This document shows positions 1,866 to 23,633 of a stretch of 64,000 nucleotides of DNA, in pieces. Every line of letters begins with the position of its first letter. Positions within the stretch are counted from its first letter, which is position 1. Source of the stretch: Peptococcaceae bacterium (GTDB lineage: Bacteria; Bacillota; Dehalobacteriia; UBA4068; JAAVYR01); NCBI GenBank assembly GCA_022791255.1, contig JAAVYR010000018.1:1-64000 (forward strand), in the 5' to 3' direction. Under the pieces are notes generated by a model, which saw only the letters and a program-made list of their open reading frames with translations, did no database searches and had not been told where the DNA came from. Both the position numbers and the translations under genes were made by a program.

Positions 1866-1873
1866 AGATAAAA

Positions 1874-2987: not shown

Positions 2988-3000
2988 TTTTCCAATAAAT

Positions 3001-3031: not shown

Positions 3032-3044
3032 AAAGAGGTATATT

Positions 3045-5449: not shown

Positions 5450-5526
5450 GTTTTATTCCTCCCTTTATTAAATAAGTAATAATAAAATTAAGTAAGTGTG
5501 AAATAAAATGTTGCTTGGTCGGGATA

Positions 5527-5563: not shown

Positions 5564-5601
5564 TATTCCGACATGTTTTATGACAACATATTTGGTCATC
5601 A

Positions 5602-5717: not shown

Positions 5718-5733
5718 CATAAGAATTTACTAC

Positions 5734-5762
5734 ATCATATCATAATCCTTGTTTTTTTGCAA
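5734..5762 (-). promoter_or_regulatory. promoter of the glycine-riboswitch operon
   Basis: On the minus strand TTGCAA (5762-5757) and TATGAT (5739-5734) are separated by 17 nt. Transcription would begin a few bases before the ghost hairpin of the riboswitch. Confidence 0.65.
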
Positions 5763-5929
5763 GGAAAATCTCTATATCATTTTATAGAAGGAAGAGAAAT
5801 TTGTCTAAAAGTAACATATTTCATAAAAATTTCTTATTTTTTGTTGGAAAAGAGAGGGGTAAGAGGGTTTCCGGATATTCAGTAGAATATAAAAAAGGAT
5901 TGCAAAATAAAAAAAAATGTATTAGACTA

Positions 5930-5952
5930 TTATTAGTAATTGTTACTAATAA
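5930..5952 (+). promoter_or_regulatory. palindromic operator upstream of the rubredoxin gene
   Basis: Ten-base arms TTATTAGTAA and TTACTAATAA form a perfect inverted repeat around TTG, about 20 nt before the start codon of the high-molecular-weight rubredoxin. The form and AT content suit a MarR- or Fur/PerR-type dimer. The exact regulator is not determined. Confidence 0.6.
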
Positions 5953-5970
5953 ATTAAAAGAGGTAGTAGT

Positions 5971-6645
5971 ATGGATAACACAGCATTATTTCAATTATCC
6001 TATGGATTATACGTCGTTACCACCAAAGGCAAAGGCCGTATCAATGGCCAAATAGCGAATACAGTTTTTCAGATTTCTGATACACCGGTGCGATTAGGGG
6101 TAGGTTTGAATAAAAATAATCTCACTAATGAATTAGTAAAGGATAGCGGTATTCTTTCGGTACAAGTATTAGAGCGGGATGTACCGTTTGATGTTATTAG
6201 CCGCTTTGGCTTCCAATCTGGCAGGAATGTGGATAAGTTTGCTGATATTGCTTACCAGACTAATGCAGATGGTTGTCCTATACTCGTAGATGGCATTGCA
6301 GCTCAAATCGACTGCAAGGTAATTGGTGCTATGGATGTGGGTAGTCATACCTTATTTATTTGTGAGATGACCGATGCGATAAGAAATGATAAAACGCCAT
6401 TGACCTATGCCCAATACCATGAACGGAAGAAAAACGGCGGCGCTTTATTAGGTGCGGCTGCTGCTGTGCCGGAGGTTGCACCGACAGCTCCAGCAGATGG
6501 AACCAATGGTAAGCGGTATCAATGCATGATTTGCGGACATATTTATGATGAAGCCAAAGAAGGGGTTCCTTTTGCAGACTTACCAGAGGATTGGGAATGC
6601 CCTATCTGTCATGTGAAGAAAAAAATGTTTACAGAAGTAAAATAA
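5971..6645 (+). CDS. high-molecular-weight rubredoxin (flavin reductase + rubredoxin)
   Basis: Residues 1-150 are a flavin reductase-like FMN-binding domain ([39 protein letters not shown]). After an Ala/Pro linker, residues 175-224 are a rubredoxin with two Cys pairs ([19 protein letters not shown]) for one iron. Proteins of this fusion type shuttle electrons from NAD(P)H to flavodiiron proteins or rubrerythrin, detoxifying oxygen, NO or peroxide in anaerobes. The ribosome site AAAGAGG lies 8 nt upstream and rubrerythrin follows 35 nt later, which supports a joint job. A palindromic operator lies upstream. Confidence 0.9.
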
Positions 6646-6680
6646 CAAATAATAAAGAAATAAGAGGAGGCATTTTTACA

Positions 6681-7214
6681 ATGGAATTAAAAGGAAGTAA
6701 AACAGAAAAAAACTTATGGGAAGCATTTGCAGGGGAGTCTATGGCAAGAAACAAATACACTTATTTTTCCTCTGTAGCAGATAAGGAAGGCTACAAACAA
6801 ATTGCGGCCATCTTTACGGAAACGGCTGATAATGAAAAGGCTCATGCGAAAGTTTGGTTTAAATTGTTAGATGGGATTGGTACTACGGCTGAAAACTTAA
6901 AAGCTGCCGCTTGCGGGGAAAACGAAGAATGGACTGCTATGTATCCAAGAATGGCAAAAGAAGCTGATGAAGAAGGTTTTCCTGTGATTGCAGAACTGTT
7001 CCGCAAGGCTGCTGCTGTAGAAAAAGATCATGAAGAACGGTATAAAATCTTAGCTGAACACGTGGAAAACGGTACTGTTTTCAAAAGAGAAATGCAAATC
7101 GTATGGCAGTGCCGGAATTGCGGTCATATTTATGTAGGTACAGAAGCGCCGCAGGTTTGCCCTCTGTGCGCTCATCCCCAAAGCTTCTTTCAAGAATTAG
7201 CAAAGAATTATTAA
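6681..7214 (+). CDS. rbr: rubrerythrin
   Basis: The 177-residue protein reduces hydrogen peroxide at a diiron site. Residues 1-140 form the four-helix bundle, with the iron-binding motifs [17 protein letters not shown] and [10 protein letters not shown]. Residues 145-177 are the rubredoxin-like tail with CRNCG and CPLCAHP. I chose ATG 6681 because AGAGGAGG lies 9-10 nt upstream and the family begins [12 protein letters not shown]. It forms an operon with the upstream rubredoxin, its likely electron donor. A terminator follows at 7219-7252. Confidence 0.96.
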
Positions 7215-7218
7215 AACC

Positions 7219-7252
7219 TAAAAGACTGCCGTTTATATGGCAGTCTTTTTTA
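7219..7252 (+). terminator. terminator after rubrerythrin
   Basis: AAAAGACTGCC and GGCAGTCTTTT form a stem, with GTTTATAT as the loop, followed by a T run. Confidence 0.85.
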
Positions 7253-7299
7253 TAGAGGAAATTGTGGGAAATGTATAAAACGAAGTAAAAAGGGAAATA

Positions 7300-7327
7300 T
7301 TTACAAAAAGGGTTTTTATGGTATAAT
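7300..7327 (+). promoter_or_regulatory. promoter of the DUF1858-hslO unit
   Basis: TTTACA (7300-7305) and TATAAT (7322-7327) are spaced 16 nt apart, about 50 nt before the DUF1858 gene. Confidence 0.6.
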
Positions 7328-7378
7328 GACTTCAGTAAAAGTAAGTTTGATAAGAATTTATGAGAAGAGGGGAAAAAG

Positions 7379-7579
7379 ATGGATATGATTACGAAAGAAA
7401 TGAGTATTTTAGAAGCTGTACAGACTTGGCCAGAAACTGCTGCTGTATTTATGGAGTTTGGCATGGGATGCTTAGGCTGTATGGCAGCTCGGTTTGAAAA
7501 TATTGAACAAGGGGCTACTGCCCATGGTATTGATGTAGATGCATTGGTAGATGCTTTAAATGCAGCTATCGCTGAATAA
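7379..7579 (+). CDS. DUF1858 redox-disulfide domain protein
   Basis: The 66-residue protein is one complete DUF1858 domain (hybrid-cluster-protein-associated redox disulfide family). It contains the characteristic FMEFGMGCLGCMAARFEN with a CxxC pair at about residues 31-34. The domain is thought to act as a small thiol-disulfide or metal-handling module; no reaction is proven. The start at ATG 7379 follows AGAAGAGGGG. It is encoded 45 nt before hslO in the same direction, consistent with a redox-stress unit. Confidence 0.88.
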   Translation: MDMITKEMSILEAVQTWPETAAVFMEFGMGCLGCMAARFENIEQGATAHGIDVDALVDALNAAIAE

Positions 7580-7623
7580 AGCAGGATAAATCACAGTATG
7601 CAGGAGAAAAGGAGGAGGCTGTT

Positions 7624-8508
7624 ATGGCAGATTATTGTTTGAGAGGCATTAGTGAAAATGGACAAGTTCGGTTTTGGGCTATTCGCTCTACTGATTTGTG
7701 TGAGGCAGCTCGTCTTTGCCAGCAGTCTTCTCCTGTGGCTACTGCGGCTCTAGGCCGGTTACTTACGGCTGGCGTAATTATGGGATTATCCTTGAAGGAG
7801 CAAGACCAGATTACCCTGAAGGTGGAAGGCAATGGTCCCCTAGGACAGCTCATTGCCGTAGCGGAAGCAGACGGCACGGTGCGGGGCAGAGTGGAAAATC
7901 CTTTGGTCGTGGTGCCGGATAAAGCCCCTGGCAAGTTAGATGTAGGGCAGGCTGTAGGGCCAGATGGCTTCTTGCATGTTATCAAAGACATGGGTTTTGG
8001 CGAGCCTTATGTGGGGACAGTATCCCTTCTTAGCGGAGAGATTGCTGATGATATTAGCAATTATTATGTAGAGTCGGAGCAGGTGCCAACGGCGCTGGCA
8101 CTTGGCGTCATGATAGATAGAGATTATCATGTATCAGCTGCTGGGGGGTATATGGTGCAGCTCCTTCCTGGTGCAACAGAAGAAACAGCAGAAATACTTG
8201 AAAAAAACATCTTATCTTCTCCTGTGGTAAGCGCTATGATTGACCGTGGTGATACGCCGGAAGTCATGTTAGAGCAAATATTAGCAGGTATTGATTATAA
8301 GATTTTAGAGCATAAAGACGATATTAAATTTCAATGTCGTTGCTCTCATGAGAAATTAGCTGACGCCTTGGCAAGCTTAGGGACGGACGAGTTAACCGAT
8401 ATGAGAGAAACGATGGAGCAGGTAGAATTAACTTGTGGTTTTTGCGGAAAGAAGTATTATTTTGCGAAAGATGAATTGACGGAAATCATTGACCGCTTAG
8501 AGAAATAA
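7624..8508 (+). CDS. hslO: redox-regulated chaperone Hsp33
   Basis: Hsp33 is a holdase chaperone switched on by oxidation of its zinc-binding cysteines. The 294-residue protein has the N-terminal Hsp33 fold (RGISENGQVRFWAIRSTD, SPVATAALGRLLTAGVIMGL) and the four C-terminal zinc ligands in the order CxC (Cys238, Cys240) and CxxC (Cys271, Cys274). The start ATG 7624 is preceded by AAAGGAGGAGG. It follows the DUF1858 gene and precedes a HAD hydrolase. All key residues are intact. Confidence 0.96.
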   Translation: MADYCLRGISENGQVRFWAIRSTDLCEAARLCQQSSPVATAALGRLLTAGVIMGLSLKEQDQITLKVEGNGPLGQLIAVAEADGTVRGRVENPLVVVPDKAPGKLDVGQAVGPDGFLHVIKDMGFGEPYVGTVSLLSGEIADDISNYYVESEQVPTALALGVMIDRDYHVSAAGGYMVQLLPGATEETAEILEKNILSSPVVSAMIDRGDTPEVMLEQILAGIDYKILEHKDDIKFQCRCSHEKLADALASLGTDELTDMRETMEQVELTCGFCGKKYYFAKDELTEIIDRLEK

Positions 8509-8534
8509 CCCAAGAATAAATACCGGAGGAAAAC

Positions 8535-9266
8535 ATGAAGCAAGGGATTTTATTTGATTTAGACGGGACTCTTTGCAAAATGGATTTAGACCAATTTAAT
8601 AAAGCATATATGACGGGAATGGCAGAGTATTTCCAGGATATTGTGCCGATTGAGGCATTTGCCGGGCAAGTGATGAAGTCTTGCGGGTTTATGGTGGCCC
8701 ATGCTAATCCGTATATCTTTTGCAAGAATGTGTTTATGGAGCACTTTGCTAGAGTCTTTGGCCTCAATGAGGAGCAAGTATGGAACCGTTTGGTGGAATT
8801 TTATACAGAAGTATTCCCACAATATCGGGAATATGTAGAACCTTGCCCGGAAAACCAGGCGCTAATTGCTTTGGCACGGGAAAAGGGGTATAAAATTGCG
8901 GTAGCCAGCAATGCCATTATGCCGTTAGTTGCCATTGAGGAGCGGGTGCGCTGGGCTGGCTTAGACCCTGCCCAGTTCGACTTTGTCACTGGCATGGAAA
9001 ATATGCACTTCTGTAAGCCCAATACTGGCTTTTTCCAGGAGATTGCTCAGCATATTGGTGTGCCGGCAGAAAACTGTGTCATGCTAGGCAATGACCTTGC
9101 AGAGGATATGCCTGCCCACGAAATTGGCATGAGTACTTTTCTAATCGGAGAAGAAACTGATGGACAGGATGAGAATGTAGACTGGCATGGTAGCTTAGAA
9201 GATTTTGGAGAGCTGCTGGCAAATGATTTTGTTTTGCCGGAGCAACTATCGGACAGTGAAGCATAA
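8535..9266 (+). CDS. HAD-superfamily hydrolase
   Basis: The 243-residue protein is a class I HAD phosphohydrolase with all four motifs: DLDGTL with the Asp nucleophile near residue 8, ASNA (motif II), CKPN with the conserved Lys (motif III) and GNDLAED (motif IV). A helical cap (residues 20-95) sits between motifs I and II. The substrate cannot be predicted. It follows hslO by 26 nt with its own CGGAGGA ribosome site and ends at a bidirectional terminator. Confidence 0.85.
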   Translation: MKQGILFDLDGTLCKMDLDQFNKAYMTGMAEYFQDIVPIEAFAGQVMKSCGFMVAHANPYIFCKNVFMEHFARVFGLNEEQVWNRLVEFYTEVFPQYREYVEPCPENQALIALAREKGYKIAVASNAIMPLVAIEERVRWAGLDPAQFDFVTGMENMHFCKPNTGFFQEIAQHIGVPAENCVMLGNDLAEDMPAHEIGMSTFLIGEETDGQDENVDWHGSLEDFGELLANDFVLPEQLSDSEA

Positions 9267-9281
9267 GTAAAAAGCATAAAT

Positions 9282-9315
9282 AAAAAGGAGAGCAATCTAT
9301 TGCTCTCCTTTTTTT
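9282..9315. terminator. bidirectional terminator
   Basis: AAAAAGGAGAGCAA and TTGCTCTCCTTTTT form a long stem around TCTA, flanked by A and T runs. It serves the HAD gene on the plus strand and the 32-aa membrane-protein gene on the minus strand. Confidence 0.88.
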
Positions 9316-9322
9316 GTTCTTC

Positions 9323-9421
9323 TTATTTATTAGATTTTTTCTTTTTCAAATTACTGAAAATTGCAAAGCCTGCCACTAGGAAAAAGGCAATCGTTACAAT
9401 AATTTCTATTTTGTCATACAT
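9323..9421 (-). CDS. 32-residue single-span membrane protein
   Basis: This short reading frame encodes an acidic N-terminus (MYDKIE), one hydrophobic helix (IIVTIAFFLVAGFAIF) and a basic tail (SNLKKKKSNK). That layout predicts a one-span protein with its C-terminus in the cytoplasm. AAGAAGGGGAAG lies just upstream as a ribosome site, a promoter is at 9507-9480 and a terminator follows directly. So a complete transcription unit is present, and its small size alone should not exclude it. I recognise no family. Confidence 0.7.
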   Translation of the reverse strand: MYDKIEIIVTIAFFLVAGFAIFSNLKKKKSNK

Positions 9422-9479
9422 AGCTTCCCCTTCTTTCTTCTGCATGAGATGTCTGACATTGGTCTTGATTTTCTTTCCT

Positions 9480-9507
9480 ATTTTACCATGATAAGGTAGA
9501 AAGTCAA
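9480..9507 (-). promoter_or_regulatory. promoter of the 32-residue protein gene
   Basis: On the minus strand TTGACT (9507-9502) and TAAAAT (9485-9480) are spaced 16 nt apart, 59 nt before the start codon. Confidence 0.65.
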
Positions 9508-9556
9508 GATTATCCCAGACAATGAATGGCGATGCCGCAGAAAAAAGGGGCTGATT

Positions 9557-10288
9557 TTATCTTCTCATTTTATGTCCGCAATAAGGGCAAACCAGGTAAT
9601 ATTCATCGGTTTCTAAATAATCTATTAATTCTTTTCTGCTGGTTTCTGGCAGCGGCATAGGGATTTGCGCTAACATATCCCGAGATGGGATAAATACTTT
9701 ATCTCCTGGGTAGATGATTTTATCTTCGCTAAGCTGCGGATTTACGGTGAGTATTTGGTCTACGGTAAAGCCGTTTTCTTTGGCGATTTTATAGAGAGTG
9801 TCGCCTTTTTTTACAGTGTAAACATAAGGCTTGCTTTGACTAGGTTTCCAATTGTCCATTTCGTCATCATCATATTCATGACAATGACAGTGATAGCGGT
9901 CGCCTTCTGGGCTAACATAGTCCATTTCATACTTGGAGCGATATTTATCGGTATAATAGGCTTCTTCTTTTTTTGCTGCTGGTTTTTCATAACTGTAATA
10001 TTTGCTGCTCACTGGCATAGCGGCATAGTCGGAGTCTAATTCAAAATCCTCATAAGCGGCAGCGGCTTCTTCGGCGCGGGGCTGTGGACGAACGGGACGG
10101 CAGCCGGGCGGGCATTTTGGTGGTTGGGGTTTACTTTCTTTTTCTGGGATGAAGACTTTGTCTCCGATGTAAATTTGGTTTGGATTGGTGATTTGCGGAT
10201 TGGCGTCCATCAGTTCATCCAATGTGAGTTTATGGCTTTGGGCAATTTGCCAAAGGGTTTCTCCTTTTTTAATGGTATGTATTTTCAT
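9557..10288 (-). CDS. double-LysM protein with Cys-rich tail
   Basis: The 243-residue protein has two LysM peptidoglycan-binding domains: residues 1-50 (IHTIKKGETLWQIAQSHKLT ... GDKVFIPE) and about 155-205 (YTVKKGDTLYKIAKENGFTV ... GDKVFIPS). Between them is a Tyr/Glu/Asp-rich linker with HCHCHEYDDDE. The C-terminus is a short CPYCGHKMRR knuckle. There is no signal peptide. This recalls spore-coat or SafA-like LysM proteins, which lack classical signals and act at the forespore, but the identity is not secure. I placed the start at 10288, where AGGGGGAAT precedes ATG. Confidence 0.8.
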   Translation of the reverse strand: MKIHTIKKGETLWQIAQSHKLTLDELMDANPQITNPNQIYIGDKVFIPEKESKPQPPKCPPGCRPVRPQPRAEEAAAAYEDFELDSDYAAMPVSSKYYSYEKPAAKKEEAYYTDKYRSKYEMDYVSPEGDRYHCHCHEYDDDEMDNWKPSQSKPYVYTVKKGDTLYKIAKENGFTVDQILTVNPQLSEDKIIYPGDKVFIPSRDMLAQIPMPLPETSRKELIDYLETDEYYLVCPYCGHKMRR

Positions 10289-10386
10289 TGATATTCCCCC
10301 TAAAAAGTTCATTTTTTCTCATAGTATTCTGGTTCTTTGAATTGGTGCTTGTATGCTGGGAAGATTTAACTTGGGAAGATTTGTTT

Positions 10387-10415
10387 TTGAGTTTCGGACC
10401 GGGGTATGGTAAAAT
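10387..10415 (+). promoter_or_regulatory. promoter of the DUF362 gene
   Basis: TTGAGT (10387-10392) and TAAAAT (10410-10415) are spaced 17 nt apart, about 70 nt before the start codon. Confidence 0.55.
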
Positions 10416-10486
10416 GACAGAGAATTATCTAGTATCAGCTGGATGTGTTAGATGTATGGATTAAAATGAAATTATGAGGAATAGCA

Positions 10487-11638
10487 ATGGAAAAGGTTGC
10501 TTTATGTAAGTGTCAGTCTTATGAAGAAAAAGAGATTGCAGACGCTCTATATCAAGGGTTTGATTTGTTAGCAGCTGAAGAGTTTTTACCTGGAGCGGGA
10601 CAGATTGTTTTCTTGAAGACAAATTTGCTGATGGCGAAATCTCCAAAAAGTGCCGTCGTAACCCATCCTGCTGTGGTAGAGGCGGTAGCCGCTTATTTTT
10701 GTAAAAGAGGCGCTCGGGTTATTATTGGCGATAGCCCCGGAGGGCCGTTTTTACCTGGACTGCTGAAAAGTGCATATCATGCAGCGGGGCTAATAGGGGT
10801 AGCGGAGCGGACAGACAGTACATTAAATTATGATGTATCAGTACAGGAAGTGCTAGCTGCAGAAAAGACAAGAACTAATTCTTTTTCTATGGTAAAGGCT
10901 ATGTTAGAAGCTGACGCCATCATCTCCCTAGCAAAGCTAAAAACCCACTCAATGATGATGTATAGTGGTGCTGCAAAAAATATGTATGGCGCCATTGCCG
11001 GCATGGCAAAGGTGGATTATCATTTACGGCTGCCAAATTATACGGATTTTGCTCATCTTTTAGTAGATGTTTGCGAGACGGTAAAACCTGTTTTTAGTAT
11101 CATAGACGGCATTGTTGCCATGGAAGGGAACGGTCCCTCTGGCGGTATGCCGCGGCAAGTGGGTGCGCTGGTTATGGGAAAAAATCCCTATGCTGTTGAT
11201 TGGATTGGTGCTAGTGTATTGGGGATGTCGCCTGAAGATATCCCAATGCTTGCAGCGGCAAGAGAACGGGGGCTGGTGACGCCTGCAGATATCCATATAT
11301 ATGGAGAAGAACTAAGCACTTTGCAAATCACTGATTTGCAGCTGCCAGATAGCCGGCCTATCCATTTTTATCATCAAAAGTTGCCGGGGTTTTTATCTGA
11401 CTGGTTGGATAATCGCATCAAACCTAGGGTTCGAGTAGAGAAAAACCGCTGCATTGGTTGTGGTAAATGTGTAGCCCATTGCCCGCCGCGTGCTATGTCA
11501 CTGGTAGATAAAGTTCCTAAGATAGCGGAAAAGAAGTGTATTTGCTGTTTTTGTTGTCAGGAGCTTTGCCCAGAAAAAGCCATCGAGATATATCGAGGCT
11601 GGCTAGGCAGGTTCTTAATGGAGCATAAAAAATCATAA
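10487..11638 (+). CDS. DUF362 protein with two [4Fe-4S] clusters
   Basis: Residues 1-300 are a DUF362 domain (FLKTNLLMAKSPKSAVVTHP, IIGDSPGGPF, SLAKLKTHSMMMYSGAAKNM, YAVDWIGASVLGM). Residues 318-370 are a bacterial ferredoxin module with CIGCGKCVAHCPP and CCFCCQELCPEKA, enough for two [4Fe-4S] clusters. DUF362 proteins are iron-sulfur redox proteins of unsettled function, common in anaerobes. It stands alone after a promoter; GAGGAA is the ribosome site. An extra Cys in the second cluster motif (CICCFCC) is worth noting but does not remove any ligand. Confidence 0.85.
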   Translation: MEKVALCKCQSYEEKEIADALYQGFDLLAAEEFLPGAGQIVFLKTNLLMAKSPKSAVVTHPAVVEAVAAYFCKRGARVIIGDSPGGPFLPGLLKSAYHAAGLIGVAERTDSTLNYDVSVQEVLAAEKTRTNSFSMVKAMLEADAIISLAKLKTHSMMMYSGAAKNMYGAIAGMAKVDYHLRLPNYTDFAHLLVDVCETVKPVFSIIDGIVAMEGNGPSGGMPRQVGALVMGKNPYAVDWIGASVLGMSPEDIPMLAAARERGLVTPADIHIYGEELSTLQITDLQLPDSRPIHFYHQKLPGFLSDWLDNRIKPRVRVEKNRCIGCGKCVAHCPPRAMSLVDKVPKIAEKKCICCFCCQELCPEKAIEIYRGWLGRFLMEHKKS

Positions 11639-11665
11639 ATTTTATAGGCTTAATAGAAATGAATA

Positions 11666-11694
11666 TTGATAGAATATTTAAGATATGGTAGAAT
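11666..11694 (+). promoter_or_regulatory. promoter placed directly before the ylbF-like start codon
   Basis: TTGATA (11666-11671) and TAGAAT (11689-11694) are spaced 17 nt apart. The -10 box ends only six bases before the ATG at 11701, so the transcript would start at or within a base or two of the start codon. Confidence 0.6.
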
Positions 11695-11700
11695 GATAAC

Positions 11701-12084
11701 ATGAGAGATGAAATTAATTTACAAACTACAAAAATATTGGCGGGCTGTCATGATCTTGCGGTCCTATTAAAGGATAGTCCGGAATTTGCTGCTTACCAAA
11801 AGGCCAAGGAGGCTGTGGGCAAAAATGAGTCAGTTTTGGAGCTTTTAATGAAGTTTCGTGCTCTGCAAATGCGAGTTCAAGTAGCTCATTTAGGTAAGGC
11901 AGAAAATCTGGCCCTAGAAAAAGAATTAGACGATATGTATTTTACTTTGAGCATGTATCCGGAAATCAATGATTTCTTAAATGCAGAGTATCGTTTTTCT
12001 AAACTGGTAGGAGAAATGCAAAAGATTTTTGCCAGTGAGCTTGGGGTGGAGCAGGCAGCAATGGAATTGCCCAATTTAAACTAA
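11701..12084 (+). CDS. YlbF/YmcA-family protein
   Basis: The 127-residue, helix-rich protein matches the YlbF family: LLKDSPEFAAYQKAKEAVGK, ELLMKFRALQ, then YRFSKLVGEMQKIFASELG. In Bacillus the relatives YlbF and YmcA form a complex with YaaT that steers RNase Y-dependent mRNA maturation and development. A similar role here is plausible but unproven. No ribosome-binding sequence is seen, and the promoter -10 lies immediately upstream, which suggests a leaderless mRNA. perR follows 65 nt downstream. Confidence 0.85.
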   Translation: MRDEINLQTTKILAGCHDLAVLLKDSPEFAAYQKAKEAVGKNESVLELLMKFRALQMRVQVAHLGKAENLALEKELDDMYFTLSMYPEINDFLNAEYRFSKLVGEMQKIFASELGVEQAAMELPNLN

Positions 12085-13754: not shown

Positions 13755-14714
13755 ATGAAAATGGTAACTAAAAAGAAATCTATCTTATTGTTGACGGTTG
13801 CATTGTTGACTACGGTGCTATGTTTGAGCGGCTGCAAGGATAATGGCGGTCAAAATGCTCAAAAGATGGAAATCGGTGCTAATCCGCAGATTATTGCCGG
13901 TGGTTTATGGCATACGGTAGCCTTAATGGAAGATGGTACTGTGCAGGCTATGGGCAATAATGAGTATGGCCAGTGCGATGTAGGGGATTGGCAGGATATC
14001 GTTTCTGTGGGGGCTAGTAGCTTCAGCACCTTTGGACTGAAAGCTGATGGCACTATAGTTGCTGTGGGACGAGATGTTTTTGATATCTCAGAAGTGGAAA
14101 AATGGACGGATATTGCAGTACTTACTGTAGGTGCTGACTATGTAGTAGGTATTAAGACCGATGGCACGATGATTGCGGCTGGCTATAATGACCGCGGCAA
14201 CTGTGATGTAGAGGACTGGACGAATATCACAGCAGTGGCCGCTTTTGGCCACACTTTGGGATTAAAGGCAGATGGCACAGTGGTAGTGGCTGGTGGCGTT
14301 GGTGTGGAAGATTTCGGTGAGTGTAATGTGGCTGACTGGACGGATATGGTAGCAGTAGCTGCTGGTAACAGCCATAGTGTGGGCCTTAAAAAAGATGGTA
14401 CGGTAATCGCCATTGGGGATAATCGTTTTGGCGCTTGTAATGTGGACCATTGGACAGATATTGTAGCTATAGACGCATATGGACAACAAACTGTTGGGCT
14501 GAAGGCAGATGGTACGGTAGTAGTCTGTGGGCAAGATGGCTATGGACAATTGACAGATGCTTTGAGCTGGCGGAATATTGCAGCCATTTATGCGCTGCAA
14601 GACCGTGTAGTTGGTATTAAAACAGATGGTTCTATTGTTGCAGCTGGCTTTGGCGATACTTCTATGGAAAGCTGGACCGGAGTGAAACAGCTAAATCGGC
14701 AAGTAGTGGAATAA
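13755..14714 (+). CDS. RCC1-repeat lipoprotein
   Basis: The 319-residue protein begins with a lipoprotein signal peptide ending in LSGC (lipid-anchored Cys about 27). The rest is seven repeats of about 40 residues with the pattern (V/I)GLKADGTVVAxG ... xxWTDIVAVAAG, the signature of an RCC1-type seven-bladed beta-propeller. Such propellers bind protein or carbohydrate partners; nothing points to a specific ligand. It is a single gene, probably displayed on the outer face of the cytoplasmic membrane. The repeat number and length are complete for one propeller. Confidence 0.88.
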   Translation: MKMVTKKKSILLLTVALLTTVLCLSGCKDNGGQNAQKMEIGANPQIIAGGLWHTVALMEDGTVQAMGNNEYGQCDVGDWQDIVSVGASSFSTFGLKADGTIVAVGRDVFDISEVEKWTDIAVLTVGADYVVGIKTDGTMIAAGYNDRGNCDVEDWTNITAVAAFGHTLGLKADGTVVVAGGVGVEDFGECNVADWTDMVAVAAGNSHSVGLKKDGTVIAIGDNRFGACNVDHWTDIVAIDAYGQQTVGLKADGTVVVCGQDGYGQLTDALSWRNIAAIYALQDRVVGIKTDGSIVAAGFGDTSMESWTGVKQLNRQVVE

Positions 14715-14860: not shown

Positions 14861-14889
14861 TTGACAAGATAGCCTGGGGGTGCTATCAT
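14861..14889 (+). promoter_or_regulatory. promoter of the his-leader/ior operon
   Basis: A consensus TTGACA (14861-14866) and TATCAT (14884-14889) are spaced exactly 17 nt apart. The transcript would have a leader of about 250 nt before iorA, holding a short peptide gene and a terminator. Confidence 0.8.
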
Positions 14890-14952
14890 AAATAATATAG
14901 TAAAGAGTCATCTAAAAGCTATGTAATAAAGGGCTGAAAGAGGATGTTTGTT

Positions 14953-15042
14953 ATGTCTCAACAAGCAGCACAATTACAAGTTCAAAAAGGCATTTCCATG
15001 GTTGCTATTCATCATAACCACCATCATTTGATTGGGGGCTAG
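14953..15042 (+). CDS. histidine-rich leader peptide
   Basis: A 29-residue reading frame starts at ATG 14953, 9 nt after AGAGG. It begins MSQQAAQLQVQKGIS and near its end has CAT CAT AAC CAC CAT CAT (15010-15027), i.e. HHNHHH: five His codons in six. A UAG stop follows, then an intrinsic terminator 58 nt later and iorA. This is the architecture of amino-acid leader peptides such as hisL, where ribosomes stalled at uncharged His codons prevent termination. No other purpose for such a peptide is evident. A functional small His-rich metal-binding peptide is the main alternative. Confidence 0.7.
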   Translation: MSQQAAQLQVQKGISMVAIHHNHHHLIGG

Positions 15043-15056
15043 TTTTATATTGCTTT

Positions 15057-15130
15057 GATGGGTAGTGGCTGTTCATAAAAAGATGTATGGTGTAATCTCA
15101 AAAACTCCCATGTAAATGGGAGTTTTTTTT
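15057..15130 (+). terminator. attenuator: antiterminator strand and intrinsic terminator
   Basis: The terminator stem is AAAACTCCCAT / ATGGGAGTTTT (15101-15111, 15116-15126) with loop GTAA and a run of T. Upstream, ATGGG-T-AGT (15058-15066) is complementary to ACTCCCAT (15104-15111) with one bulged base, giving a competing antiterminator. The antiterminator strand can also pair with the His-codon region (GATG with CATC, GTGG with CCAC). These are the four regions of a classical attenuator; the last pairing is the weakest. Confidence 0.65.
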
Positions 15131-15148
15131 GTAAGCGAAGGAGGCAAC

Positions 15149-17011
15149 ATGATGGTAAAAAAAATCGTTTCTGGTAATGACGCAGTAGGCTTAGGCGCTC
15201 TTCGTGCCGGGGTAAAGGTGGTATCTGGCTATCCTGGTACACCTTCTTCTGAAGTGATTATCGGACTTTTGAAAAGAAAAGATTTAAGTGGCACCTATGT
15301 AGAGTGGAGTGTTAATGAAAAGGTAGCTTTAGAGGTGGCGGCAGGTGCAGCTTGGGCAGGGAAGAGAAGTCTTGTGACTATGAAAATGTCCGGCTTAAAT
15401 GTTGCTTTTGACGCTCTTGCTTCTATTGCTTATTCTGGCTGTCGCGGCGGTATGGTCATCTATGTCTGTGATGACCCGGGGGTAAGTGCCGGCATGCCAG
15501 AGCAGGATGTGCGCGGCTTTGCCCAGATGGCAGATATGCCGATGCTGGAGCCTGCTACCGTCCAAGAGTCTTATGATATGACTATCTTGGCTTTTGAGCT
15601 ATCTGAGAAAATCGGCGGTCCTGTCTTTGTGCGGTCGGTGACTAATGTTTCTCAGACCCATAGCCAACTGGAATACGAAGAACGGACATTACCTAGTGAT
15701 GCAGACATTATCCTAGAAAAGGATATTAATAAATATACCAAAGCGGGCGCTGCTATCTGTATGGAACAACACCGGGCAGTGATTGCGCGATTGGCAGAGG
15801 CGGAAGCATATCTGGATGGTCAATATGCTAGCTTCAAATTAGGCAAAAAAGGTGGTTTGGGGATTATCACGGCAGGTGTTGCCGGGGTATATCTAGATGA
15901 GGCATTGGCGTTGCTGTCTGATTATGGGATAGATAGGGACGAGCTAACCATATTAAACACGGTGGCGACTATTCCGGCGCCAGTGAAGCAAATCAAAGAA
16001 GTAGTTGCCAATTGTTCCCAAATTCTAGTGCTGGAAGAATTAGAACCTTATCTGGAGCGGACAGTACTCCAGACTGCTTATCAAATGGGTAAAATCTTGC
16101 CTATCTTTGGCAAGTTAGACGGTACTTATTCTCGTATCAATTGTTACGATGCTTTCACTGTGGTGAGGGGATTAGAAAAGGCATTAAACCTTCGCTTACC
16201 GGAAGATTTTTATCAGGCAGCAAATTGCACGGATTTAGCGGCGCCAAGACCCATTACCACTTGTGCTGGCTGTCCGCACCGCGGTACATATCTTGCCATC
16301 AATCAAGCTATCCGTAAGGCTGGGTATAAAAAAGATGAAGTGATGGTGACAGGGGATATCGGCTGCACTATCTTAGGCATGAACCCTCCCTTCTATAGTA
16401 TTTGGACGGAAGTGTCTATGGGAACTAGCATTCCTTTAGCCCAAGGTTTTGTAAAGGCTGGGCTCAAAACGCCGGTCATTGCTACCATCGGGGACTCTAC
16501 CTTTTTCCATGGTGGCATGCCTGGACTTATCAATGCCATCCAGCATAATATTCCCGTAACGGTGATTATCATGGATAACGGCTGGACGGCCATGACGGGG
16601 ATGCAGGTAAACCCCAATACTGCGCAGGAATTTCAAGGGGAAGACTGGAAGCAGTTGGATTTGGCAAAGATTATTCCGGCTTTGGGGATAGAACAATTTT
16701 ATCAGGTAGACCCTTACCAGCTCACAGAAATGACGGATATTTTGACGGATTGCATGAAAAAGCCTGGGGTAAAAGTGATTTTGGCTCGTCGGGAGTGTGC
16801 CATCCAGACCAATCGGAGAAAAATCAAATACGGCACTATGAAACTGGACCAAAATAAATGCACCAATTGTAAAGCATGTATTTCTGTAACCGGTTGTCCT
16901 GCGCTATCTATTGTAGATGGTAATATCGAAATCGACCAAAATCTCTGCAATGGCTGTGGACTGTGTACTTATAGCTGCAAGTTTTCTGCACTGACAAGGG
17001 AGGACTGCTAA
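15149..17011 (+). CDS. iorA: indolepyruvate ferredoxin oxidoreductase, alpha subunit
   Basis: The alpha subunit of the aryl-2-oxoacid:ferredoxin oxidoreductase interconverts aryl pyruvate plus CoA with aryl acetyl-CoA, CO2 and reduced ferredoxin using thiamine diphosphate. Seen here: SGYPGTPSSE near the N-terminus, TTCAGCPHRG, the TPP signature GDIGCTILGMNPP through IGDSTFFHG to DNGWTAMTG, and two ferredoxin motifs at the end (CTNCKACISVTGCP, CNGCGLCTYSCK). I chose ATG 15149 after AAGGAGG (620 residues). It is the first enzyme gene behind the His-leader attenuator. Whether it runs oxidatively or as a reductive carboxylase is the key open point. Confidence 0.95.
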   Translation: MMVKKIVSGNDAVGLGALRAGVKVVSGYPGTPSSEVIIGLLKRKDLSGTYVEWSVNEKVALEVAAGAAWAGKRSLVTMKMSGLNVAFDALASIAYSGCRGGMVIYVCDDPGVSAGMPEQDVRGFAQMADMPMLEPATVQESYDMTILAFELSEKIGGPVFVRSVTNVSQTHSQLEYEERTLPSDADIILEKDINKYTKAGAAICMEQHRAVIARLAEAEAYLDGQYASFKLGKKGGLGIITAGVAGVYLDEALALLSDYGIDRDELTILNTVATIPAPVKQIKEVVANCSQILVLEELEPYLERTVLQTAYQMGKILPIFGKLDGTYSRINCYDAFTVVRGLEKALNLRLPEDFYQAANCTDLAAPRPITTCAGCPHRGTYLAINQAIRKAGYKKDEVMVTGDIGCTILGMNPPFYSIWTEVSMGTSIPLAQGFVKAGLKTPVIATIGDSTFFHGGMPGLINAIQHNIPVTVIIMDNGWTAMTGMQVNPNTAQEFQGEDWKQLDLAKIIPALGIEQFYQVDPYQLTEMTDILTDCMKKPGVKVILARRECAIQTNRRKIKYGTMKLDQNKCTNCKACISVTGCPALSIVDGNIEIDQNLCNGCGLCTYSCKFSALTREDC

Positions 17012-17012
17012 G

Positions 17013-17615
17013 ATGAAAAAGCTTGATATTTTTATCGTAGGGGTTGGCGGCCAAGGGGTGCTGACCATTGGGGATATTATCGCTATGGCCATGGGGGAGA
17101 AGAACTATATCACTAGCTTTTATCCAACCAAAGGCATGGCCCAGCGGGGCGGCTTTGTGAAAGCTCAATTGCGCATTGGAGAAGGTTTAGGTCCGAATAT
17201 CCCGCTAAAGGGTGCAGATGTGATTATCTCTATGGAGCGGTCTGAGTCCTTAAAAGCGGCGCCATACATTCATGATAAAACGAAATTTATCATCTATGGA
17301 CACACTTGGTTTCCTACCGGCGTCATGCTGGGAAAAGATAACTATCCGGCAAAAGAAGCTGTTGTGGATGCTTTAGCCGGTGCCGGGGCCCAAGTGGTTT
17401 ACCTAGATGAGGAAGACTTACCTCTCTACGAGGGAGCGCCTATGGCAGAAAACATTTATCTTTTAGGCGGGGTAGTGGCTACCGGTGCTTTAGAAGAGTT
17501 TGTTTCTATAGCAGATATTGCTGAGGCTATCGCCAATAAATGGCCAAAGGGTGCAGAACGAAACCTAGCATCTTTTTATGCTGGTGTAGAAGCAGCAAAA
17601 AAGTTATTGGCGTAA
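17013..17615 (+). CDS. iorB: indolepyruvate ferredoxin oxidoreductase, beta subunit
   Basis: The 200-residue protein is the gamma-type domain subunit of the 2-oxoacid:ferredoxin oxidoreductases (FIVGVGGQGVLTIGDIIAMA, YPTKGMAQRGGFVKAQLRIG). It pairs with IorA to form the active enzyme. The gene begins one base after the iorA stop, with GGGAGG inside the iorA end, so synthesis is coupled. Length and motifs are normal for the family. Confidence 0.95.
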   Translation: MKKLDIFIVGVGGQGVLTIGDIIAMAMGEKNYITSFYPTKGMAQRGGFVKAQLRIGEGLGPNIPLKGADVIISMERSESLKAAPYIHDKTKFIIYGHTWFPTGVMLGKDNYPAKEAVVDALAGAGAQVVYLDEEDLPLYEGAPMAENIYLLGGVVATGALEEFVSIADIAEAIANKWPKGAERNLASFYAGVEAAKKLLA

Positions 17616-17658
17616 TGAAAAAATTCGTGAAATATAATGAGATAAAGAGGCATTTTGT

Positions 17659-19677
17659 ATGAGTTTAAAAGCACTTTTTGAGCCTAGGGGCATCGTAGTT
17701 GCTGGCTCTGTCAGTCCGGGAAAATTGGGTAGTGTATTAATCGACCGACTGTTAGACGGCGGCTATCAGAATATCTTTGTGGTAAACCCAAAAGGGCAGG
17801 GCTATGGCGATATACCTGGTTTTGTTTCTGCCGGACAAATCAGTGCGCCGGTAGATTTGGTCGTAATTGTTTCCCCTAGTTTTACAGTGGCTAGTGTCTT
17901 AGAGGACTGTGGGAAAGCTGGGGTAAAGGCAGCAGTAATTATCACTTCTGGTTTTGCAGAAGTTGGCAACAAAGATGGTGAAGCAGAAATCATTGCTGTG
18001 GCAAAGAAATATGGCATTCGCTTCATCGGTCCAAACTGTGCCGGCATGGCGAATACCGACTTTAATCTGTATGCGACACTGGAAGAAAAGCCTTTGCCTG
18101 GTGGTATCTCGGTGCTATCTCAGAGTGGCGCTGTAGGCGGTGCTGTTATGGTGGCCTCTAAAGAACGGGGTATTGGCATTAGCAAGTTTCTGAGTTTTGG
18201 CAATGGCTCTGATTTAGAGGTATTAGAGTTGTTGGCTTATCTGCGGGACGATGCTGATACCAATGCTATTGTGCTTTATATCGAAAACATCAAAGACGGC
18301 AGAGCTTTCATGGATGTGTTAAAATCAACTACTGCGAAAAAGCCTGTGATTGTCATTAAATCCGGCCGGACTTCTAGTGGGCAGCGGGCTACCCTTTCTC
18401 ACACCGGTTCTTTATCCGGTTCTGACCAAGTATATAGTGCCGCTCTTGCTCAGTGCGGTGCGCTACGGGTGCGGACTTTAGAAGACGCTTACGACCTTTG
18501 TCAGGGATTTGCTGTATTACCTCAGCCCCAAGGGGATAAAGTCGTTATCGTGACCAACTCTGGCGGGCCGGGCGTGATGGCAGCCGACCAGGCTGATGAT
18601 GAAGGGTTAGCAGTTCTCGAGGCAAGCCCTGCCTTAAAAGAAGAATTAGGAACTTTCCTTTCTCCCTATGCAGGCAAGGGAAACCCCATTGATATTACGG
18701 TAGAGGGCACCGGGGAACAATATCGCCGGGCTCTAGTAACAGCTTTAGCTGATTATGACAGCGCCCTTGCTTTTTATATCGGGACCCCTTACTTAAAAGC
18801 TATGCCTATTGCAGAAGGCATCGTGAGCGCGGCAAAGGAAACAGGTAAACCGATTATTGCCAGCCTTATGGTTGGCTCTGATATGGCAGAGGCCCTCGCT
18901 TATCTAAAAGCGAATAACATTATGTATCTGCCTGATGGGGAACGGGCTATGAAAGTCTTTGCTAAGATGGTTCAGTATCAGACTTATCTGGCTGATAAAA
19001 ATGAGATGGTAGCGCCTGTTGCGGTAAAAGCAAATCTGCCTGGGATGATTTTAGAACCGGATGCTATGGATCTTTTAAAAGAAAATGGCTTGCCGGTGCC
19101 GGCCTTCCGCTTTATAACGGAAAAGGGGCAGCTGCAAGCTGCAGCAGCAGAAATAGGTTATCCTGTCGTCATGAAAGTGGTATCGCCCCAAATCATCCAT
19201 AAGTCTGACGCGAAGGGCGTTTATCTGAATTTACAAAATATTGCCGAGGTGGAGGCTGCCTATGATACCATGGCGGCAGCTTTTGCTGATAAAGATTTTC
19301 GCGGCGTAATGCTATACCCCATGGTCCCGGCTGGGAAAGAAATCATGGTGGGCTTCCATCAGGACCCGCAGTTTGGGCCAGTGGTATTAGCAGGTCTTGG
19401 CGGCATTTATACAGAAATCCTCAAGGATGTGGCTTTGGCAGTGGCTCCTGTCACACCAGAAAAAGCAAAGGCCATGTTAAAGACATTAAAGTGTTATCCG
19501 TTGCTGACAGGAGTACGGGGAGAGCGTGCTATTGATATTGCGGGGCTTGCCCAGCTCATTGCGGACTTTTCTCAGTTGCCATTTGCTTACCCCGATTTAC
19601 AAGAGGCGGATTTAAATCCTGTATTTGCAGATGAAAATGGGGTTGCCATTGTCGATGTGCGTTTGATTAGAAAATAA
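17659..19677 (+). CDS. ADP-forming acyl-CoA synthetase (fused alpha-beta)
   Basis: The 672-residue protein joins the CoA-binding alpha part (residues 1-450, IGPNCAGMAN, SQSGAVGGA, phosphorylatable His248 in LSHTGSLSG) and the ATP-grasp beta part (470-672, YPVVMKVVSPQIIHKSDAKG, GVMLYPMV). It converts acyl-CoA, ADP and phosphate to acid, CoA and ATP, or the reverse. Beside ior it is expected to act on aryl acetyl-CoA or imidazoleacetyl-CoA. In archaea the same pair ferments aromatic amino acids; in the reverse direction it activates aryl acetates for reductive carboxylation. It lies 43 nt after iorB. Confidence 0.93.
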   Translation: MSLKALFEPRGIVVAGSVSPGKLGSVLIDRLLDGGYQNIFVVNPKGQGYGDIPGFVSAGQISAPVDLVVIVSPSFTVASVLEDCGKAGVKAAVIITSGFAEVGNKDGEAEIIAVAKKYGIRFIGPNCAGMANTDFNLYATLEEKPLPGGISVLSQSGAVGGAVMVASKERGIGISKFLSFGNGSDLEVLELLAYLRDDADTNAIVLYIENIKDGRAFMDVLKSTTAKKPVIVIKSGRTSSGQRATLSHTGSLSGSDQVYSAALAQCGALRVRTLEDAYDLCQGFAVLPQPQGDKVVIVTNSGGPGVMAADQADDEGLAVLEASPALKEELGTFLSPYAGKGNPIDITVEGTGEQYRRALVTALADYDSALAFYIGTPYLKAMPIAEGIVSAAKETGKPIIASLMVGSDMAEALAYLKANNIMYLPDGERAMKVFAKMVQYQTYLADKNEMVAPVAVKANLPGMILEPDAMDLLKENGLPVPAFRFITEKGQLQAAAAEIGYPVVMKVVSPQIIHKSDAKGVYLNLQNIAEVEAAYDTMAAAFADKDFRGVMLYPMVPAGKEIMVGFHQDPQFGPVVLAGLGGIYTEILKDVALAVAPVTPEKAKAMLKTLKCYPLLTGVRGERAIDIAGLAQLIADFSQLPFAYPDLQEADLNPVFADENGVAIVDVRLIRK

Positions 19678-19695
19678 ATGCAGAGGAGTATGACC

Positions 19696-20811
19696 ATGAC
19701 TGTAAAATCAAGAGCAGAATTAGAAAATTTACCTGATTATCAAGAGGGCAAGCCTTTTGAAATGGCTTGTGCTGAAAAAGGCATTGCCAGTGTAACACGG
19801 CTCTGCTTTAACGAAAATCCCATGGGTATGTCTCCTCTGGCTAGAGAGGCCATTGTAGATATGGCGGGAAAAGCGGATAGATACCCGGATACCTTCATCT
19901 ATGAACTAAGAGAAAAGATTGCGGCGAAAGAACGGGCTCGTGGGCTAGTTGCTGTCACTCGTGAAAATGTCTTTGTCAGCAATGGCTCTGATGAGATGAT
20001 TAATCTTTTAGGAAAGACTTTTTTGTCTTCCGGAGATGAAGCCATTATTGCAGACCCGACTTTTCCTCAGTTTGAGACGACCATCCTTTCTATGGGAGCG
20101 AGGGCTATCAAGGTGCCGGTAGACGCTGACTTTCAACATGACCTTGACGCCATGTTTCGGGCTATCACTGATAAAACAAAAATGATTTTTCTCTGTAATC
20201 CTAATAATCCTACTGGGACTTATTTAAATAAAAATGCCATTAGCGCCTTTCTTGCGCAGGTGCCAGAACATATCTTAATCGTCTTGGATGTAGCTTATTG
20301 TGAATATGCGCAAGATGCGGCAGATTATGACCAAGGGGACGACTATGTACTGCAGCGGCCTAATGTGATTGTGTTGCGAACTTTCTCCAAAGTGTATTCT
20401 CTAGCTGGCCTTCGCGTTGGCTATGCCATTGCTTGTCCTGCATTATTGGCCCAAATGCAGAAGGTGCGGGAGCCCTTCAATGTAAATATCATTGCCCAGG
20501 CAGCAGCAGCTGCGGCGCTGGATGATAGTGACCATGTGGCGCGTACCTTGGCCAATAATGAACAAGGCAAAGCTTATCTGTATCAGGCCTTTACGGAAAT
20601 GGGGCTTAGCTTTGTGCCAACAGCTGCAAACTTTATTTTAGTGCAGATTGGCGTGCCTTCCAAACAAGCGGAAAAGGCACTCTTAGATTTAGGTATTGCC
20701 GTAAAGGCCGGGGCTCCTTATGGTCTAGAAGGATATTTACGGGTAACCATCGGTAAAGGGGAGGATAATGAAAAATTTATTGCTGCCCTAAAACAAGTAT
20801 TAGGTAAATAA
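19696..20811 (+). CDS. hisC: HisC-family aminotransferase
   Basis: This PLP-dependent class I/II aminotransferase (371 residues) is of the histidinol-phosphate/aromatic type: LCFNENPMGMSPLAREAI, VSNGSDEMINLL, FLCNPNNPTGTYLNK, LDVAYCEYA and the PLP lysine in RTFSKVYSLAGLRVGYA. HisC relatives act on histidinol phosphate and often on phenylalanine, tyrosine or histidine. In this operon it would interconvert an aryl or imidazole pyruvate with the amino acid. The start is ambiguous; ATG 19696 lies 7 nt after AGAGGAG, while ATG 19678 overlaps that site. No other his genes are nearby. Confidence 0.88.
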   Translation: MTVKSRAELENLPDYQEGKPFEMACAEKGIASVTRLCFNENPMGMSPLAREAIVDMAGKADRYPDTFIYELREKIAAKERARGLVAVTRENVFVSNGSDEMINLLGKTFLSSGDEAIIADPTFPQFETTILSMGARAIKVPVDADFQHDLDAMFRAITDKTKMIFLCNPNNPTGTYLNKNAISAFLAQVPEHILIVLDVAYCEYAQDAADYDQGDDYVLQRPNVIVLRTFSKVYSLAGLRVGYAIACPALLAQMQKVREPFNVNIIAQAAAAAALDDSDHVARTLANNEQGKAYLYQAFTEMGLSFVPTAANFILVQIGVPSKQAEKALLDLGIAVKAGAPYGLEGYLRVTIGKGEDNEKFIAALKQVLGK

Positions 20812-20844
20812 AAAGAATATCAATTTTAAAGAAAGAGATAATTT

Positions 20845-22740
20845 ATGGAGCAGCGAAGAAGCTTTTCCCCGCAAGAAAAAGTCGTTTTTTCTTTAGCGAC
20901 CATATTGGGCTTTCTCCAACTTTGGTGGGTGATGGTTCATCCCCTTACCAGTTATCTGCAGCAGGCCATCCATCTCTCTTTTATGCTGGCGATTATTTTC
21001 CTCACCAAGCCGGCGCTGAAAAGAGATGTACCTGTGAAATCTTTCAGTGGTTTGGCGGTAAGCATTACCCTTGCTTTGCTTGCGCTGGGGGTGGGGGCTT
21101 ATCAATGTTGTTTTTGGCAGGATATCTTGCTGCGGGCAAGTAATCCTTTGCTTTGGGATGTCTTCTGGGGAACGGTGCTCTTACTCTTGATTATGGAGGG
21201 TATTCGTCGTTCTGCCGGTAATATGATGTGTGGTATTTCCGGCTTTTTCTTTCTTTACGCATTTATTAAGGTAAACGCTGATTTTGGCTTTCAAGATTTT
21301 GGCGGAGCGTTAAGACAGATTATTGCTGTAGAATTTATGTCAGAGCAGGGCATTTATAATATGCCGCTGCAAACTATGAGCAGCTACATTATTATCTTTG
21401 TGATTTTCAGTACGGTTTTAAGTCATTTAGGGGCTAATCATCTCTTTAATGAATTGGCTCACTGCTTTGTTGGTCATAAGCGAGGCGGGGCTGGGAAAGT
21501 AGCAGTGATAGCCAGCGGTATTATGGGGGCTACCAGTGGCAGCCCTATTGCGAACCTGTTTACTACTGGTGTTTATACTATCCCTATGATGCGGGCCCAG
21601 GGGTATCCTTCTCGGTTTGCCGGCGCTATTGAGTGTGCGTCTTCTATTGGCGGGCAGCTCATGCCTCCTATTATGGGGGCGGTGGCCTTTATGATAGCAG
21701 ATAGTGTGGGCATTGCTTATCAGCAGGTGTTGGTGGCGGCGTTATTACCGGCTATTCTTTATTATGCTTCATTGCTATTTACCATTGACCTGGAAACGCA
21801 AAAAATGGGATTGGAGACCATGGAGCGGCAGAGTAAAAAAATGCTTTTGCCCATCCTAAAAAAGGATGGGGTGCTGCTCCTGCCGCTCTTACTTCTAATT
21901 ATTCTGTTAGCATATTATGCAGCTCCTCATGTAGCAGGCGGTATTAGCATTCTCTTTTTATACGGATTAGGGGTACTACGGCAGCCCAAGGGACTTTCTT
22001 GGGGACGGAAGGTCCATAATTTTTCTTTGAAATTTATTTATGGGATGGATAAAGGCGTTATCAGTATTTGTGGGCTGGCTTCTCTTGCAGCAGGCTCTGG
22101 TATGGTTATCGGCTTCATGGAGCTTTCTGGGTTAGGGGTGACCCTAAGCGAGTTCTTAGTTTCTCTTGCCAATGGCTCTTTGTTCCTAACATTGTTATTA
22201 TGGGGATTTTTAGCATTGGCGCTAGGCGGGCCCATGCCGACTCTGAGTGCTTATCTGTTGGTATCTACATTAGCGATGCCTATCTTTTCTCAGTTTGGCA
22301 TAGCGCCGGTAGCGACTCATTTATTTGTGCTTTATTTTACTATGGTGGGGCCGGTTATCCCGCCAGTATCTATCCTTGCTTGCTGTAGTGCCAGCATTGC
22401 CGGGGGGCCACCTATCCAGATTAGTCTTTCCACGTTGAAAATTGCTTCAGCTGCATTTATCATCCCTTTTGTGTTTGTCCTGCGGCCGGAGCTGCTGATG
22501 GTGGGAGCATGGTGGCAGATTTTGCTGGTGTTCCTCAGTGTGCTTTTAGGCGTATTCCTATTTGCCGGGGTGGTGGAAGGTTTCTCTCAAAAGCGGCTTA
22601 CTTGGGGAGGTCGGCTTTTTCAGGGTGGGGTAGCTGTTTGCTGCTTTTTTCCAGATTGGCGAGTAAATGTAGCTGGTTGTATGGCTGCTGTATGGCTGCT
22701 ATATCAGAGTCTTTCTGCCAAGCAAAGGGAAGTATCTTAA
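20845..22740 (+). CDS. TRAP transporter fused permease (4TM/12TM)
   Basis: The 631-residue membrane protein has about 16-18 helices and is the fused small-plus-large permease of TRAP-type transporters (IMGATSGSPIANLFTTGVYT, ECASSIGGQLMPPIMGAVAF, ALGGPMPTLSAYLLVSTLAM, GPVIPPVSILACCSASIAGG). These use ion gradients and a TAXI-type binding protein to import organic acids. No binding-protein gene is in the window, so the partner is encoded elsewhere or absent. As the last gene of the ior operon it is the best candidate to import the aromatic or imidazole acid handled by the enzymes. Confidence 0.9.
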   Translation: MEQRRSFSPQEKVVFSLATILGFLQLWWVMVHPLTSYLQQAIHLSFMLAIIFLTKPALKRDVPVKSFSGLAVSITLALLALGVGAYQCCFWQDILLRASNPLLWDVFWGTVLLLLIMEGIRRSAGNMMCGISGFFFLYAFIKVNADFGFQDFGGALRQIIAVEFMSEQGIYNMPLQTMSSYIIIFVIFSTVLSHLGANHLFNELAHCFVGHKRGGAGKVAVIASGIMGATSGSPIANLFTTGVYTIPMMRAQGYPSRFAGAIECASSIGGQLMPPIMGAVAFMIADSVGIAYQQVLVAALLPAILYYASLLFTIDLETQKMGLETMERQSKKMLLPILKKDGVLLLPLLLLIILLAYYAAPHVAGGISILFLYGLGVLRQPKGLSWGRKVHNFSLKFIYGMDKGVISICGLASLAAGSGMVIGFMELSGLGVTLSEFLVSLANGSLFLTLLLWGFLALALGGPMPTLSAYLLVSTLAMPIFSQFGIAPVATHLFVLYFTMVGPVIPPVSILACCSASIAGGPPIQISLSTLKIASAAFIIPFVFVLRPELLMVGAWWQILLVFLSVLLGVFLFAGVVEGFSQKRLTWGGRLFQGGVAVCCFFPDWRVNVAGCMAAVWLLYQSLSAKQREVS

Positions 22741-23516: not shown

Positions 23517-23522
23517 AAAGCT

Positions 23523-23633
23523 GCAAAGATAAAAACACAGCCCGGTTGGTAGTCCGGGCGCAGCAAAACTGTCAGTAACCTGCCTCCTAAGGTTGTCCCT
23601 TCTTTGTGAGTACATATTTTTAGGAGGGGTATT
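23523..23633 (+). ncRNA. yjdF-motif riboswitch
   Basis: The leader of the yjdF gene contains the hairpin CAGCCCGG-TTGGTAG-TCCGGGC, then CAGTAACCTGCCTCCTAAGG and finally the ribosome site TTAGGAGG. CCTCCTAA (23583-23590) is perfectly complementary to TTAGGAGG (23620-23627), so a folded state can hide the ribosome site and control translation. Known yjdF-motif RNAs precede yjdF genes and bind azaaromatic compounds; the natural ligand is debated. The gene context and pairing support the call. I could not run a covariance model. Confidence 0.8.

Follow-up and report, generated by a model that had tools for sequence, protein, structure and literature searches.

Histidine (His) supply in bacteria can be placed under the control of a short leader peptide. 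In the E. coli hisL leader and the His leaders of Firmicutes, a peptide gene with a run of His codons and a terminator with a competing antiterminator precede an operon for histidine supply. A survey of more than 600 Firmicutes species described HisR, T-boxes and, in three lineages, His-leader attenuators (the B. cereus group, Peptostreptococcaceae/Lutispora and Erysipelotrichales), all linked to his operons or His transporters (PMC9413887), and an earlier scan found His leaders ahead of hisZ and a hisS paralogue in bacilli (PMC2965389). Here we describe a predicted His leader in a 64,000-nt stretch of the genome of a Peptococcaceae bacterium (hereafter the window). Unlike the known leaders, which belong to other lineages and act on the his operon, a His transporter or hisS, this one stands in a Peptococcaceae-like genus, has no Rfam match and precedes iorA, iorB, an ADP-forming acyl-CoA synthetase gene, a HisC-like aminotransferase gene and a TRAP permease gene.

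The closest described enzymes come from archaea. Thermococcus kodakarensis has an ADP-forming imidazolylacetyl-CoA synthetase specific for imidazoleacetate and a His-active aminotransferase, and ACS4 of P. furiosus accepts imidazoleacetate (PMC9986279, PMC3942289). These synthetases and the aminotransferase TK0548 act between histidine and imidazoleacetate, as we propose for the enzymes described here. However, the Thermococcales system is catabolic and no linked IorAB has been named for His, whereas the present genes form a single operon behind a His-starvation leader, implying the opposite direction. Methanococcus maripaludis makes aromatic amino acids from aryl acids via IOR (MMP0713-0714) (PMC4162585). 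That route resembles the one proposed here in leading from acid to CoA ester, 2-oxoacid and amino acid with IorAB in a synthetic role, but it yields Phe, Tyr and Trp instead of His and has no His leader.

Rumen bacteria reductively carboxylate arylacetates, and mixed rumen microbes have been reported to form histidine from imidazoleacetate or imidazolepyruvate. The latter conversion is not known to have been assigned to genes or organisms, and no report of imidazoleacetate being converted to histidine was found in the literature searched. The reading we favour, with a probability of roughly 0.58, is that a His-sensing, ribosome-mediated attenuator controls an operon for the reductive salvage of imidazoleacetate, or of a related imidazole acid such as imidazolepyruvate, to histidine. 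In the literature consulted, we judge the pairing of a His attenuator with such an ior-synthetase-HisC-like-TRAP pathway to be undescribed.

The His-codon leader and its alternative folds

The leader lies between a promoter and an intrinsic terminator upstream of iorA (Table 1), and was compared across three species of the genus: the source genome (G000) and its sister species G001 and G002. A single promoter-like site in 580 bases does not exceed what shuffled sequences yield; the leader promoter was nonetheless conserved in both sister species. The terminator hairpin was missed by a simple terminator scan because its stem extends into the T tract. No match to Rfam His_leader (RF00514) or T-box (RF00230) was found in the window at the gathering threshold, ruling out a T-box or a known Rfam His leader as the identity of the element.

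An order-wide DNA search with the leader region returned matches in the two sister species only. The leader tail, VAIHHNHHHLIGG, is identical in all three species, whilst the remainder of the peptide diverges: the first halves read MLQQITPLQLQNGIHMVAIHHNHHHLIGG and MSAKQYNQLQLENGISMVAIHHNHHHLIGG in the sister species, with promoter, frame, tail peptide and terminator all kept. Aligned from a conserved ATG at position 14998, 70 of 76 columns were identical across the three species. Codons for Phe, Trp or Tyr are missing from the conserved tail. Attenuation would predict just such a pattern, with the His-rich tail and the RNA strands held constant and the start of the peptide drifting.

This pattern bears on the possibility that an open reading frame (ORF) with a His run arose by chance, next to a hairpin that is an ordinary terminator or some other element of the 5' untranslated region. 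Short ORFs with five His in six codons do arise by chance, as one of 60 simulated first-order Markov sequences of 64 kb held one; in the real window, the leader is the only example. Retention of the promoter, frame, tail peptide, alternative strands and terminator in three species, against a diverging N-terminal part, makes a chance origin highly improbable.

The leader RNA of each species folded better than its dinucleotide shuffles (z of -3.7, -3.1 and -2.6). In the thermodynamic model with no ribosome on the leader, the His-codon stretch paired with a strand just 5' of the terminator, and the terminator hairpin formed; in unstalled RNA modelled before synthesis of the 3' arm, upstream pairing of the terminator 5' arm had a probability (P) of 0.0 in G000 and G001. 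When a ribosome was placed on His codons 1 to 3, the 5' arm was paired upstream in all three species (P ~0.8), mainly with the TGGGGG strand in the last leader codons. A ribosome waiting at the stop codon still permitted the second pairing, with ATGGGTAGT, so that termination would depend on ribosome release.

These models, together with the conserved His codons, strongly support the action of the leader as a His-sensing attenuator. Scarcity of charged tRNA-His would stall the ribosome at the His codons; the leader's GGGGG stretch would then pair with the terminator 5' arm and transcription would read through, whilst ample histidine would allow the terminator to form. An earlier note, made from the letters of the window, had proposed this regulation, and the promoter, the 29-codon His-rich leader and the terminator that it described were all recovered here. 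The competing strand that it named exists, and can now be assigned mainly to TGGGGG, with ATGGGTAGT as a second partner. Its expectation that relatives would keep the His codons and paired strands was borne out within the genus and failed elsewhere: synthetase loci outside the genus held no DNA similar to the leader, and upstream of related ior-synthetase loci there we found neither a convincing His-rich leader ORF nor an Rfam riboregulator.

Classical histidine genes and the distribution of the module

The source genome is a draft of 1.56 Mb in 24 contigs, 96.8% complete, with the window on contig 1. Histidinol dehydrogenase (HisD) and imidazoleglycerol-phosphate (IGP) dehydratase (HisB) had no match in it, whereas 13 of 14 control genomes matched; both enzymes are missing from the genus. 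Nor was a HisA/HisF pair found: the genome has one strong family match, a HisA-like ORF that on checking stands alone and does not belong to a his operon. Many genomes of the order also carry HisA/F-family ORFs with weaker scores away from the his operon. The search of the hisGDBHAFI set, which the earlier note had put forward as a check on its pathway, thus yielded no HisD, HisB or HisA/HisF pair, HisG, HisH, HisI and HisE not having been searched singly. Histidine ammonia-lyase is absent from the source genome by family search. The genome encodes chorismate synthase and an arginine cluster (argF, argD, argB, argJ, argC and argH), so the organism does not have the look of a general amino-acid auxotroph. 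Its gene content suggests that this gut bacterium has lost the usual pathway for making histidine.

Among 35 genomes of the order, HisD was lacking in nine, a synthetase and IorA of the window type were present in nine, and seven combined the two features. HisD was therefore absent from 7/9 genomes with the module versus 2/26 without it (Fisher p 1.7e-4 by genome and 0.013 by genus, in a sample with several incomplete genomes and with relatedness uncorrected beyond the genus-level count). The gene order iorA-iorB-synthetase is widely conserved across lineages. A HisC-like gene adjoins these three in Clostridia and Chloroflexi (loci L043, L046, L062, L063, L065, L066 and L073), forming a recurrent four-gene module, and four of its six host genomes lacked HisD. 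A general rule that the module marks the loss of HisD was rejected, as many distant hosts have HisD.

Enzymes and the proposed route to histidine

The reactions are reversible and homology cannot give their direction; a leader that opens the operon on histidine shortage points to a supply route, not to breakdown. In the proposed route, the TRAP permease would import a histidine-derived acid, most likely imidazoleacetate, which the ADP-forming synthetase would convert with ATP to its CoA ester. IorAB would carboxylate the ester with reduced ferredoxin to imidazolepyruvate, and the HisC-like enzyme would transaminate the latter to histidine. The five gene names given in the earlier note agree with family and domain models. 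The reductive histidine salvage that it suggested gains support from the regulation and from the lack of key His genes; the substrate, the reductive direction and the transport step we infer. Every single step has a precedent, and the combination under a His attenuator appears to be new.

IorA and IorB of the window fell below the equivalog cut-offs (Table 1), yet retain the IOR fold and domains. The pair probably works like IOR and, on sequence, belongs to a divergent group. A separate canonical IorA above the cut-off is encoded elsewhere in the source genome with iorB and a phenylacetate-CoA ligase-like gene (PaaK), which would leave the divergent IorAB of the window free for another substrate. 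This canonical iorB-iorA pair and its ligase-like gene lie inside the arginine cluster, between argC and argH (L121, G000:C5:38000-54000, 965-11900, minus strand). Such pairs are usually catabolic, and the setting here is anabolic. The synthetase-linked IorA proteins of Clostridia, Synergistes, Chloroflexi and Spirochaetes were separate from canonical IorA, and the nearest relatives of the window IorA outside the genus were those of L052 (G010) and the goat-cecum locus L065, both from genomes without HisD. Salvage of aromatic compounds as the main role of the operon is less likely, given chorismate synthase and the separate IorAB-PaaK set.

The aminotransferase passes the TIGR01141 equivalog cut-off and retains the universal Arg as well as the lid Tyr, which in HspAT touches the imidazole ring. 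In all three species it has Lys343 at a position where every compared sequence has a second Arg, a residue that binds either a substrate carboxylate or the phosphate of histidinol phosphate (PMC4703992). Since Lys343 replaces one of the two phosphate-binding Arg residues and HisD and HisB are absent, we class the enzyme as HisC-like only. Lys343 could still bind an anion, and the substitution is suggestive only. It should be noted that the HisC-like tree is thin: two of the fetched his-operon stretches of relatives had a HisC match, and one entered the tree. The retained Tyr would also suit an operon in which histidine is made by the aminotransferase alone, from imidazolepyruvate or imidazolelactate taken up by the permease, with IorAB and the synthetase handling other aryl acids. 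Several such imidazole acids are made by gut microbes, but the position of IorAB and the synthetase at the head of a His-controlled operon would go unexplained, and we give this arrangement little credence.

A simpler role for the permease, import of histidine or a His-containing compound on shortage with the enzymes as passengers or otherwise employed, would match the usual targets of His-specific RNA switches, which in Firmicutes His auxotrophs control His transporters (PMC9413887). Against this, the His carriers known from that survey are HisXYZ and YuiF. Four enzyme genes ahead of the permease would be left unexplained as passengers, and the TRAP family is associated with organic anions. 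We consider uptake alone distinctly unlikely.

Several observations weigh against salvage of imidazoleacetate. Homology does not give the substrate, and the enzyme roles are predicted from sequence. The His leader is confined to one genus, and related modules elsewhere lack it. Of 25 distant hosts of the module, 14 have HisD, and within the order G007 and G013 carry the module together with HisD. In the unstalled RNA model of G002, the terminator arm is still paired (P 0.86), so that the switch is clean in two of the three species. The neighbourhood of the permease, in the window as in G002, holds no gene for a TRAP binding protein (the rest of the genome not having been searched), and the source genome is a draft. 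Because HisD occurs in so many distant hosts and in G007 and G013, the ior-synthetase module is not in general dedicated to histidine, and we propose that it was recruited to histidine in this genus.

The module is widespread in anaerobes, often beside a HisC-like gene and with no His leader. This would fit a fermentation that oxidizes aromatic amino acids or histidine, in which the aminotransferase would make the 2-oxoacid, IorAB the acyl-CoA, and the synthetase ATP and the acid, with the TRAP permease moving an acid. Such a role has been given to these enzymes in Thermococcales, all steps are reversible, and the His leader would then either sense starvation in general or be a relic. However, the leader senses His only, breakdown would be switched on at His shortage, and the organism is without key classical His genes. 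We regard fermentation as unlikely.

If salvage from imidazoleacetate is correct, the operon would provide a dedicated second route to histidine in an organism without the classical pathway, using gut imidazoleacetate and a specialized IorAB, and would supply genes for the conversion reported for mixed rumen microbes. Presumed histidine auxotrophs, in which hisGDBHAFI is missing, might then not be auxotrophs, and bacterial protein synthesis would draw on the imidazoleacetate released in the gut when histidine and histamine are broken down. The His attenuators of Firmicutes would extend to a further lineage and to a target of a new kind, in a rare case where regulation rather than homology tells the direction of a reversible pathway.

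Operon layout and neighbouring features

The five genes from iorA to the TRAP permease are separated by only 1, 43, 0 and 33 bases, so they are likely to form one transcript.

Table 1. Coordinates of the leader elements, the operon genes and the stand-alone HisA-like gene (window positions unless stated otherwise)
Feature	Position	Strand	Remarks
Promoter TTGACA-17-TATCAT	14861..14889	+	11/12 consensus matches; TG precedes second hexamer; G001 and G002 share both hexamers and the 17-base spacing
Leader peptide gene, 29 codons, MSQQAAQLQVQKGISMVAIHHNHHHLIGG	14953..15042 (ATG 14953, TAG ending 15042)	+	Preceded by AAAGAGG; tail identical in three species
His-His-Asn-His-His-His codons, predicted stall site	15010..15027	+	Five His in six codons
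Strand 1, inside the His codons	15019..15029	+	Modelled to pair with ~15079-15092 in unstalled RNA
Antiterminator strand TGGGGG, in last leader codons	15033..15038	+	Pairs with CTCCCA 15105-15110; modelled P ~0.8
Second possible antiterminator strand ATGGGTAGT	15058..15066	+	Pairs with ACTCCCAT 15104-15111; strand conserved in three species
Intrinsic terminator hairpin AAAAACTCCCAT-GTAA-ATGGGAGTTTTTTTT and T tract	15100..15130	+	Stem retained in three species, with a single base change in G001 that yields a G-U pair
iorA-like, 2-oxoacid:ferredoxin oxidoreductase alpha subunit, divergent IorA	15149..17011	+	TIGR03336, 564.7 bits (cut-off 650.9); domains
iorB-like, beta subunit	17013..17615	+	Top IorB model, 120.6 bits (cut-off 238); PF01558
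Fused ADP-forming acyl-CoA synthetase	17659..19677	+	CoA_binding_2, Succ_CoA_lig, Ligase_CoA_2 and ATP-grasp_5, all above cut-off
HisC-family aminotransferase, Lys343 replacing conserved Arg	19678..20811	+	TIGR01141, 323.8 bits (cut-off 276.55)
Fused TRAP permease	20845..22740	+	TIGR02123, 485.3 bits (subfamily cut-off 320.65)
Stand-alone HisA-like gene	L040:6422-7147 (G000:C1, ~206.4-207.1 kb)		Between germination-receptor-type genes and a pcrA-type helicase gene

A second HisC paralogue of the source genome (376 bits; L130:5013-6658, G000:C22) directly follows a gene for an ACT-domain-like protein, and is likely to be an aromatic aminotransferase. Immediately upstream of the operon, the window encodes an RCC1-like repeat lipoprotein (13755-14714, plus strand), a neighbour retained in both sister species. 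Two known riboswitch classes were also detected in the window: a glycine riboswitch aptamer (RF00504, 66 bits) at 5595-5687 on the minus strand, and an azaaromatic (yjdF) riboswitch (Rfam RF01764, 91.7 bits) at 23519-23616 on the plus strand, ahead of a YjdF-like ORF at 23634.

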